Source: Thermostichus lividus PCC 6715 | GTDB lineage: Bacteria; Cyanobacteriota; Cyanobacteriia; Thermosynechococcales; Thermosynechococcaceae | Assembly: GCF_002754935.1 (NCBI RefSeq) | Contig: NZ_CP018092.1 | Span: 868,001 to 932,000, forward strand | Length of the DNA: 64,000 nt | Reading direction: 5' to 3' | Part shown: piece by piece, positions 3,890 to 56,300 of the stretch | How positions within the stretch are numbered: position 1 is the first letter of the stretch | How the letters are laid out: every line of letters starts with the position of its first letter | Program-made: the position numbers and the translations under genes | The notes under the pieces: generated by a model | The model's database searches: none | Seen by the model: only the letters and a program-made list of their open reading frames with translations | Told to the model about the DNA's origin: nothing

Positions 3890-4318
3890 GTGGGCGGGCT
3901 AAAACCCCTCCGCTTTAGCGAGGGGATACAGCCAACTCAGGGGGCTTTAGCCCTCTCTATGTGTTAAACTAGAGACGTGGAAAGTAGGCGTATCAACTAC
4001 GCGAAGAAACATCCTAGTACGGAGAAATCCCGGCAAGTAAGTCACTACCGCTTTGGCGGCAAGCCTAAACCACTGCAAGCAATGGCAGGATGTTGAGCGT
4101 ATCGAATTGGCTAGTGTTGAAAAGCGCGAAACCACGAACCGAAACATAAACGTAGTCCCAATAGCAGAAATGCTTGAGGTGAGTAGGGGGTCTTTGACTG
4201 CCCCCACCCGCATTAAGTTGTGGGTGACAGCTCAAGGGAAAAGCGAAGCAACGCGGCTTCAGCCCGTTGCGTAGCATCCTTTGGGAATCCCCTCTCTTTC
4301 AAGGAGGGGAGAAGTCAA
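3890..4318 (+). mobile_element. decayed IS200/IS605-type mini-element (left end to right end, no transposase)
   Basis: The left part has two hairpins (CCCCTC/GAGGGG at 3905-3925, then GGGCTTTAGCCC near 3941-3953), followed by TGTGTTAAACTAGAG, the arrangement that precedes tnpB in such elements. The right part, 4280-4318, is AATCCCCTCTCTTTCAAGG then GGGGAGAAGTCAA, the usual right-end hairpin finishing in TCAA. Between them no TnpB domain is recognisable; short open frames exist in several phases without family features. The same left/right layout recurs at 21637-21855 and 56036-56300. It could alternatively be a structured RNA gene derived from such an element. It fills the whole gap between DUF1997 and the GNAT gene. 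Confidence 0.55.
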
Positions 4319-21636: not shown

Positions 21637-21855
21637 GGCTGGAAGCCCCGTACTTCAGTGCGGGGAGGAAAGCTTCTTTAGCAACTTCAGTTGCCTTGGG
21701 TTATAATTGTAGTGCGGACACCAGAAACGGTTGTTCAAGGCACTGGTAACGGTCGATTGGGGGTGCTGTAAACCACCCCAGAGGCTCGCGGTTGGCTTGC
21801 TAACTGCAGGGCTACTAAAAGCTCCCTGCTTTAGCTGGGAGTAGTTTACTTGCTG
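21637..21855 (+). mobile_element. IS605-type mini-element inside mgtC
   Basis: Left-end hairpins: CCCCGTACT-TC-AGTGCGGGG (21646-21665) and GCAACT-TC-AGTTGC (21681-21694), followed by a promoter-like GGGTTATAATTGTAG. The right side has a hairpin CTCCCTGCTTTAGCTGGGAG then TAGTTTAC, an eroded form of the TCAA right end. The GCAACT/AGTTGC stem is identical in the element at 56036-56300. No transposase is encoded. Confidence 0.65.
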
Positions 21856-21973
21856 TGGTTTATCTGCTGGATGCTGGCTCCACAGCGATCGCACTTGGAG
21901 GTCGCCACTAATACTGGTTAACAAAATCGTGCGAATGAGACTTTCCTCCTCCAGTCGAGCTATGACTTCACAC

Positions 21974-22064
21974 GGAACTGTGTAGGGGCGTCTTGACAGC
22001 GCCTTTATGAGTCCGTTTATGGACTGCGTAAGAATCCCCCACCTTTAGGTGGTGGGAGTGTCAA
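21974..22064 (+). mobile_element. 91-bp right-end/omega-RNA-like element, copy 1
   Basis: Begins GGAACTGTGTAGGGGCG and ends with the hairpin AATCCCCCACCTTTAGG then TGGTGGGAGTGTCAA. It matches 56036-56126 (opposite strand) at 89 of 91 positions. Predicted stems: GGCGT (21987-21991) with GCGCC (21999-22003), AGTCC (22010-22014) with GGACT (22021-22025), then the terminal hairpin. It interrupts mgtC and ends at TCAA 22061-22064. Confidence 0.8.
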
Positions 22065-22444
22065 ACCGTGGCCACTAGCCCGTGAATGACATAGCCCCCA
22101 CCGGCAAGAATACCCAAAGCCGCCGCACACCAAAGGGTTGCTGCTGTATTGAGGCCACGGATGGTTAACCCCTGCTGTAGGATCACCCCACCCCCCAAAA
22201 AACCAATTCCAGACACCACTTGAGCGGCAACGCGCGTTGGGCTAGTCTCCCCCGGAATCATCAGTGAAAACATGACAAAGATAGCCGCCCCCATCGACAC
22301 CAAGGTATTGGTGACTAGCCCTGCCATCCGGTGCCGCCACTGCCGTTCAAAACCTAGGACAGCCCCAAAGAACGCCGCCGCAATCAGCCGCGTCATAAAA
22401 TCTGACCAAGCCATTCCTAGAGTCTCAAGCCTGCTATCCTATGA

Positions 22445-22515
22445 CCCACGAGGGTTGAATTTGGTAAAGAAAGACAGAAAAAAGTAGCCAAACTGCGAGG
22501 GCTTGGCTACAAATA
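22445..22515. repeat. dispersed intergenic repeat, copy A (terminator-like on the minus strand)
   Basis: Contains a 39-bp core (22460-22498) identical to 41265-41303, starting TTTGGTAAAGAAAGACAG and ending GTAGCCAAACTGCGA. Read on the minus strand it is a perfect hairpin GTAGCCAA...TTGGCTAC followed by six Ts, the form of a Rho-independent terminator. Conservation extends past the T-tract. Confidence 0.8.
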
Positions 22516-22613
22516 CAAAAAATATACTAATACAATAAACAATTATGTATAAGCATCCTAAAATCTCTCCCCAGCACTGTCAAGTTATTACTCACTCAGT
22601 TGCCCAGCCGCCA

Positions 22614-41239: not shown

Positions 41240-41249
41240 GTTAGCATCA

Positions 41250-41320
41250 GCCACGGGTGCTGAGTTTGGTAAAGAAAGACAGAAAAAAGTAGCCAAACTG
41301 CGATGATTTGGTTACAAATG
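41250..41320. repeat. dispersed intergenic repeat, copy B (likely tmk terminator)
   Basis: Shares an identical 39-bp core (41265-41303) with copy A at 22460-22498 and weaker flanking similarity (CCACG-GTGA on the left, TTGGTTACAAATGCAA on the right). On the minus strand it follows the tmk stop as CCAAA...TTTGG, CTAC, then six Ts, so it can terminate tmk transcription. Confidence 0.8.
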
Positions 41321-41372
41321 CAACAAATAATTATGAATTAATTATCGATCAGCATTTTCAAGCACTTGAGTG

Positions 41373-55813: not shown

Positions 55814-56035
55814 CTGGCACAGCAGCAGCAGTGAGCAAAGTCATTCTTCAACGTCTCAGAAATTGTTTCTGCAAGAATTGTCCCATATCGTTGCGGAAAC
55901 CGCTGTATTACAACTGTCTTTATGGGCCATCTCTTCCAGAGTTGTGGCGATCCGAAATTCGCTGTGACTCTCTACCCTCTCTAGATAGCCTCAGCCACGC
56001 GCACAACGTAGGGCTATGGCAGGCGTTGCGTTGGA

Positions 56036-56300
56036 TTGACACTCCCACCACCTAAAGGTGGGGGATTCTTACGCAGTCCATAAACGAACTCATAAAGGCG
56101 TTGTCAAGACGCCCCTACACAGTTCCTAGAGGCAAAGCCCCAAGGTTCTGCTTACTTGTAACAACTGTCGCCGATTGGGTTTTTCACCAAGGATGGCGAC
56201 CAAGTATAGTTTAACACAGAGCAACTAAAGTTGCTTTAGGGCTTTTCCACCCCGTACTAAAGTACGGAGCTACCAAGCTAACCCTCTGTGTTGTCTTTCT
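56036..56300 (-). mobile_element. IS605-type mini-element with 91-bp right-end copy 2
   Basis: Minus-strand element. The left end has perfect hairpins CCGTACT-TT-AGTACGG (56252-56267) and GCAACT-TT-AGTTGC (56221-56234), then GTGTTAAACTATACTTG. The right end at 56036-56126 matches 21974-22064 at 89 of 91 positions and ends at TCAA (56039-56036). About 95 bases of interior show no TnpB. The region 55814-56343 (530 bases) holds nothing else I can support. Confidence 0.75.

Follow-up and report, generated by a model that had tools for sequence, protein, structure and literature searches.

The window, by which we mean the whole 64-kb stretch of Thermostichus lividus PCC 6715 DNA that was analysed, contains an inverted repeat with arms of 94 nt at positions 21974-22067 and 56033-56126, which are 97% complementary and lie 33,965 nt apart according to a repeat search. 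Within these arms, a 91-bp unit at 21974-22064 and the reverse complement of 56036-56126 are identical at 89 of 91 positions, as an earlier sequence-only reading of the window had stated, and the two differences are exactly those it named, G or A at 21999 and C or T at 22013.

The two copies differ in kind. The copy at 56036-56126 ends a 252-bp MITE, while that at 21974-22064 is a solo unit without a left end. The MITE was aligned with 13 other MITE copies of the genome; all of them have both palindromic ends and no transposase, and the left flank of the window MITE is ACAC at 56288-56291. A TATACT sequence, read by eye, lies 5' of its 5' hairpin. The promoter scan gave two matches in this MITE, both opposite to the proposed RNA strand, and at stem 1 of its 91-bp unit the RNA strand has a terminator-like match. 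No promoter match was found in the scan at the solo itself; a promoter-like TATAAT match at 21678-21707 (+) lies in a neighbouring MITE and is oriented toward the solo.

The solo lies in a broken mgtC gene. This gene is intact in the nearest relative compared (G010), relative to which the mgtC of the window is shorter by 93 bp (31 codons), and the 91-bp unit occupies the gap. Another IS605-like MITE within mgtC, at approximately 21640-21850, adjoins the solo, and a second copy of that MITE was seen upstream of L018. An 84-nt repeat is also present in the window (22441-22524 and 41246-41329, 86% identical), and a similar stretch, recognised by eye, precedes the rimP-like gene of the T. lividus genome on the other strand (L289). 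The Rfam scan of the window returned three tRNAs only, the unit matching no family, and at the MITE copy the one match was far under the threshold (11.5 vs. 37.8 bits). A search of the plasmid collection with the unit gave no match. The coordinates of the features are collected in Table 1.

Table 1. Features of the two copies of the 91-bp unit and of related sequences in the window; RNA parts are those of the proposed omega-RNA, and A2 is the alignment of 51 right ends described in the text.
Feature	Position	Strand	Remarks
Putative omega-RNA-like unit of the second family	4174..4318	+	model hit G000:C1:872174-872318, E 4.9e-5
ACAC, target/TAM-like	21970..21973	+	directly 5' of the solo; flank ACAC/GGAAC
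Solo 91-bp unit, type A	21974..22064	+	right end and proposed omega-RNA scaffold; L002 and L003 have the same 91 bp
GTAG	21982..21985	+	one base before stem 1; in 49/51 A2 rows
Stem 1	21987..22003	+	21987-21990 with 22000-22003; 93.6% of cells paired (51 sequences)
Stem-1 loop TTGACA, 5' half of possible pseudoknot	21993..21998	+	would pair with 22059-22064
Enlarged stem 2	22005..22031	+	22005-22014 with 22021-22031; 89.9% of cells paired
GAAT	22032..22035	+	in 44/51 A2 rows
Terminal right-end hairpin, TTTA loop	22036..22056	+	in the MFE fold of 4/4 TCAA-strand sequences folded
Terminal TGTCAA, 3' half of possible pseudoknot	22059..22064	+	complementary to the stem-1 loop
5' part of broken mgtC	22061..22414	-	PF02308, E 2.6e-32; orthologue comparison
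Would-be guide, 16-nt flank in mgtC	22065..22080	+	presumed by analogy with ISDra2 (accessible part of PMC8612924)
Would-be guide of the MITE copy, 16-nt flank	56020..56035	-	presumed by the same analogy
Right end/proposed omega-RNA unit, type A	56036..56126	-	terminal part of the MITE
252-bp MITE	56036..56287	-	left end, TATACT, 5' hairpin, omega-RNA unit, right end

The element family in the genome

The T. lividus PCC 6715 genome (one contig, 2,659,739 bases) contains 20 copies of the 91-bp unit, with E values from 1.7e-43 to 3.2e-18 in the DNA similarity search, and the repeat in the window is therefore far beyond chance. The copies comprise two full-length elements (L016 and L019), 14 MITEs without tnpB (each of about 252 bp, or 256 when ACAC, the target, is included), three solos and a truncated copy (L020). 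Both full-length elements carry a divergent tnpA and a tnpB. Their tnpB genes are intact, with frames of 418 aa without stops, and extend 55 nt into the 91-bp unit. The TnpB of L016 (also numbered L056) matched NCBIfam guided_TnpB (E 5.6e-51) and Pfam OrfB_IS605 (E 7.8e-18) and has a Cas12f1-like TNB domain. TnpA is a Y1 transposase (Pfam Y1_Tnp, E 1.4e-33; NCBIfam IS200/IS605 transposase, E 4.8e-38), whose gene is uninterrupted in only one of the two full-length elements. Two elements with intact tnpB are therefore closed by a right end like that of the repeat, in agreement with the assignment of the repeat to a right end in the sequence-only reading. The same reading had noted that no tnpB is attached, which is true locally at both window copies but not of the two full-length elements elsewhere in the genome.

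Among the best 40 of 52 left-end candidates, 17 were long matches, 16 of them paired with a right end and one (L113) without. Of the 17 copies, 16 have ACAC and one, L012, has ACAT as the tetranucleotide 5' of the left end. Because the bases before ACAC vary, we regard it as the insertion target; by analogy with ISDra2, it is likely also the TAM of TnpB. The GTAG tag listed in Table 1 also precedes the left-end hairpin, where its base-pairing code with ACAC presumably fits the IS608 rule. Under the same rule, we take GAAT to be the right guide tetranucleotide for TnpA, and the terminal TGTCAA is presumably the TnpA cleavage end. On the 3' side of TCAA, the would-be guide position, the 20 copies have 20 different flanks.

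The copies linked to tnpB are of type B. Units of type A have a stop in the tnpB frame, and the base that makes the stop keeps its pair as U-G; the direction of change at this base is one that we infer. Four copies (L003, L010, L015 and L017) mix parts of subtypes A and B, which suggests exchange between copies. Genome G051 also has MITEs (L325, L326 and L328) that share the 5' hairpin and carry a unit resembling type A.

Proposed RNA structure, strand and occurrence

For the structural analysis, at least 532 TnpB relatives were available, of which 80 were kept and 79 examined (L168 was left out). The right end was recognised by a regular expression in 51 of these and not in 28; ten odd right ends were dropped and L134 and L197 left out, which left 39 relatives. 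Together with nine haplotypes of the T. lividus genome (19 copies, L020 excluded) and L021-L023 (L024 excluded), they form alignment A2 of 51 right ends, the selection of which is biased toward canonical right ends.

RNAalifold returned no structure for A2, and named structures were therefore counted instead. In the structure composed of stem 1, the enlarged stem 2 and the base of the terminal hairpin (17 pairs), 91.9% of 841 cells were paired, compared with 43.1-54.1% when the partners were slid by 1-3 columns, and 76 cells showed double changes against a shuffled mean of 21.6. In stem 2, six of the ten pairs have changed on both sides. Lengthening stem 1 at the expense of stem 2 gave a covariation score below that of the extended stem 2.

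Both stems proposed in the sequence-only reading, GGCGT/GCGCC and AGTCC/GGACT, are able to form on the strand ending in TCAA. It had described the two differences between the window copies as structure-preserving, and each does keep a standard or G-U pair on that strand. The pair at 22013 (A2 columns 44-54) is conserved, being formed in 45 of 51 sequences, but the pair at 21999 (columns 22-30, a terminal pair) is formed in only 22 of 51 and is G-A in all five type-B haplotypes of the T. lividus genome. As so few sequences keep this pair, the change at 21999 is no evidence, and the argument from two copies is therefore weaker than it first appeared.

Covariation, by which the same reading had proposed to judge the structure, was assessed on the 51 right ends against a tree-based null model that preserves the substitutions on each branch (60 simulations; custom code in the manner of R-scape, not R-scape itself). 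Four of the 17 pairs were significant, all of them in stem 2 (36-65, E 0.0009; 38-63, E 0.0009; 39-62, E 0.008; 42-58, E 0.023), and the other 13 were not. When all column pairs were ranked, the leading ones that the named structure does not include were 77-88 (E 0.017), which falls in the terminal hairpin, and 28-98 (E 0.15). The latter pointed to a pseudoknot between the stem-1 loop TTGACA and the terminal TGTCAA. Counted as six pairs in the 51 sequences, it has 90.2% of cells paired, compared with at most 47.4% when slid, and 31 double-change cells; it was found after the fact, and its best pair, 28-98, has the E value of 0.15 given above. All six pairs are present in type A, while type B, including the copies linked to tnpB, keeps only TTG/CAA, the three core pairs. 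The genome also has a second TnpB family, in whose sequence a loop TTGACT faces a terminal AGTCAA.

Five columns of the 17 pairs vary within the haplotypes of T. lividus; the four that fall in stems 1 and 2 retain pairing, and the fifth, in the terminal hairpin of L009, loses it. L008 carries a further hairpin-breaking change. Part of the conservation can be coding, as stems 1 and 2 overlap codons in the rows linked to tnpB.

On the TCAA strand, the 17 pairs include 71 G-U and 11 A-C cells (14 vs. 1 in stem 1 and 56 vs. 4 in stem 2), with the base of the terminal hairpin, of which three pairs were counted, going against this polarity (1 vs. 6). Restricted to the T. lividus haplotypes, stems 1 and 2 contain 12 G-U and no A-C cells, and none of their four varying paired columns breaks pairing. 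The wobbles in stems 1 and 2 favour the TCAA strand as the RNA strand, the polarity that the sequence-only reading had proposed. Minimum free energy folding gave unusual values (z from -2.7 to -3.3) whichever strand was folded, so that folding energy gives no polarity.

A covariance model (R1) was built from A2 and applied with a cut-off of E 0.01, the best 150 of 1067 candidates being scored in the T. lividus genome. At least 75 right ends are present there: the 20 of the family studied, 48 of the second TnpB family and seven more. Eight of the 48 lie at eight tnpB genes, and 40 have no tnpB match there; the genome encodes roughly eleven full-length TnpB nucleases. The 34 copies of the second family that were read are nearly identical, have 34 different 14-nt flanks and share a common sequence leftward for at least 418 nt at the sampled offsets, with 27 to 34 copies agreeing. 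The MITE around the second-family unit of the window reaches left to 3879 at least. Among 145 genomes of the class, 39 have a model match at E 1e-4, and in 30 of these the number of matches does not exceed five, up to 29 candidates having been scored in each genome.

The model also matched, in eight genomes of the same genus, a leader located just 5' of a gene that we take to be rimP-like (E 5e-9 to 5e-4; L214, L215, L216, L222, L229, L217, L218 and L223); L285 is the same leader without a hit. It follows a TATACT box, and its stem-1 loop, TGGCA or TGACA, can pair with a terminal TGTCA in most cases, not in L218. The leader is present in nine of 11 genomes of the genus and absent before the same gene in the T. 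lividus genome and in G010. It is perhaps a vertically kept omega-RNA, which may have been domesticated, or a look-alike. A second locus in the same genus gave weak matches (E about 1e-3 to 8e-3) ending in GGAATGTCAAGAAGGTCTCAC (L224, L225, L234, L226, L219 and L227).

Solo units and the proposed function

The three solos of the T. lividus genome (L001, which is the window copy at 21974-22064, L002 and L010) lack the left end and start exactly at GGAAC, and all three have ACAC directly 5' of them. A pattern search of this genome for ACAC followed immediately by GGAACTGTGTAGGGG gave exactly three matches, all of them solos, while TCAA followed by GGAACTGTGTAGGGG gave nine matches at two mismatches, in other copies. 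In G097, which belongs to another genus, 29 model hits were read, and one of them, L307, is a solo with the same flank, so that the ACAC/GGAAC boundary is common to three own solos and one foreign solo. The elements in G097 often have internal deletions, and another of the hits, L306, has an unbroken TnpB match over residues 1-410 (78.6%). In a midpoint-rooted FastTree phylogeny of the 91 nt, the topology of which was read without support values, L001 and L002 group with type A, L010 with type B and L307 with the G097 sequences. A single origin of the solos was not seen on this topology, and their scattered positions together with the shared boundary make more than one origin likely.

These results suggest that the solos are a site-specific product, probably made by TnpA. 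The most likely route is faulty excision, in which the left target ACAC would be joined to the position after an internal TCAA. Cleavage on the left at ACAC and on the right at the TCAA just before GGAAC would yield ACAC/GGAAC...TCAA. The mechanism is drawn from four cases, and the window solo has additionally lost the 93 bp of mgtC. Reverse transcription of a processed omega-RNA was set aside as a source of solos because no parental guide follows the units, and inspection by eye found no direct repeat at the solo junctions that would point to repeat-mediated deletion. In the empty-site comparison for L002 and L010, one flank only aligned in the relatives tried, and L087, a paralogue of the right flank of L002, has no ACAC 5' of it. 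In L315 and L324, the right-end unit joins an inverted left end at its GTGT, as would result from insertion of a further copy at ACAC on the opposite strand.

The solos could also be mobile in their own right, with GTAG and stem 1 serving as a surrogate left end and a 91-nt circle inserting into ACAC targets. The ACAC/GGAAC boundary in all four solos found would fit such insertion, GTAG stands before stem 1 as it does before the left-end hairpin, and the accessible part of PMC3119063 offers the mobility of a 52-bp terminal-only element of Haloquadratum as possible. However, GTAG occurs in 49 of 51 right ends and may therefore serve RNA or coding reasons, the solos do not form one lineage on the FastTree topology (read without support values), and the 93 bp missing from mgtC at the window solo are more simply explained by one excision or deletion event. 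We consider autonomous mobility of the solos doubtful and prefer faulty excision.

Taken together, the 91-bp unit is, with high probability, the right end and the omega-RNA (reRNA) scaffold of an IS200/IS605 TnpA/TnpB family, in which guides would act in trans and solos most likely arise by faulty excision. The omega-RNA-like identity put forward in the sequence-only reading is supported by the IS200/IS605 right end and the covarying, larger stem 2, beside which a terminal pseudoknot is possible. Each transcribed copy would give an omega-RNA whose guide is the downstream flank of that copy. TnpB acting in trans may then cut sites without the element (ACAC plus that flank), which would help the copy to return.

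A function at the DNA level only, in which the unit is a single-stranded end for TnpA and the extra stems are coding fossils of tnpB without a role in RNA, appears unlikely. A Y1 transposase needs the terminal hairpin, GAAT and TCAA. MITEs moreover spread without their own tnpB, G-T pairs are possible in single-stranded DNA too, and the terminal hairpin has no wobble polarity, all of which would agree with a DNA end. A DNA end does not account for the covariation of stem 2 or for the stem-1 loop staying complementary to the terminus, neither of which is known to be a TnpA site, nor for the stop-making base of type A, which keeps its pair as U-G if the presumed direction of change is right. As to the solos, ordinary random deletion of the left parts of MITEs, for which the frequent internal deletions of G097 elements might speak, is highly improbable in view of the same boundary and ACAC flank in four cases from two genera, because, by simple arithmetic, chance would place ACAC at the edge of such a deletion in about one of 256 cases.

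A broader and more speculative extension of the omega-RNA reading, which we put forward tentatively, is that the right ends together act as a guide array, CRISPR-like but dispersed. In this view, some 58 tnpB-less omega-RNA copies (18 of the family studied and about 40 of the second) would guide the roughly eleven TnpBs in trans, and the 91-bp solos, made repeatedly by TnpA precisely at the edge of the scaffold, would be the barest free-standing guide-RNA genes. Should transcripts of the copies without tnpB be made and loaded, non-autonomous elements would come with guides of their own and rely on a borrowed transposase and a borrowed nuclease. In that case, one nuclease gene would protect non-coding copies by the dozen, a point relevant to the retention of tnpB and to the spread of MITEs. 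The recurrent ACAC/GGAAC solos may offer a natural minimal omega-RNA scaffold and a testable TnpA side reaction, and a repeat that looks like junk may belong to a set of dozens of guide-RNA copies scattered over the genome.

Comparison with known systems

In searches of the open-access literature, neither IS605 MITEs without tnpB as sources of omega-RNA nor right-end solos with a fixed boundary appeared among the titles and abstract openings listed. Omega-RNAs without an adjacent nuclease gene have reportedly been described for IscB.

The closest likeness is to ISDra2. As described in the accessible parts of PMC8612924 and PMC10097598, the ISDra2 reRNA derives from the right end of the element and the 3' end of tnpB, and its last ~16 nt are the downstream flank. 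The T. lividus family resembles it in the right-end origin, the overlap with the 3' end of tnpB and the flank as the would-be last ~16 nt. In ISDra2 the omega-RNA contains a pseudoknot and a UUUA tetraloop and can do without the part 5' of stem 1 (PMC10097598, accessible part); the possible T. lividus pseudoknot between stem-1 loop and pre-guide terminus would have the same topology, and the hairpin with a UUUA loop is alike in both. Unlike ISDra2, most T. lividus copies are without tnpB, the solo scaffold is 91 nt compared with 116 nt (PMC8612924, PMC10097598, accessible parts), and the target is ACAC and not TTGAT, as given for ISDra2 in the accessible text.

The PATEs of Haloquadratum walsbyi are similar in that they are transposase-free, have IS605 palindromes, show core deletions and include very short, terminal-only copies; for those of 52 bp, mobility is offered as possible (PMC3119063, accessible part). 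In Haloquadratum the core deletions are flanked by direct repeats of the palindromes, and guide RNA is not discussed for PATEs in the accessible part of the same source, while the short form of T. lividus has a constant start point next to ACAC and retains the predicted omega-RNA fold. A further likeness is to the GTAG-tagged REPs and RAYTs, for which a tyrosine transposase is proposed as the mover and GTAG stands at one end of the palindrome; REPs are 20-40 bp long and have no TnpB guide RNA (PMC3733652, accessible part). The TnpB omega-RNA right end is known in kind, and the variant part, for which we found no description, appears from the sequences to be the many omega-RNA-bearing MITEs and the recurrent solos with a fixed boundary.
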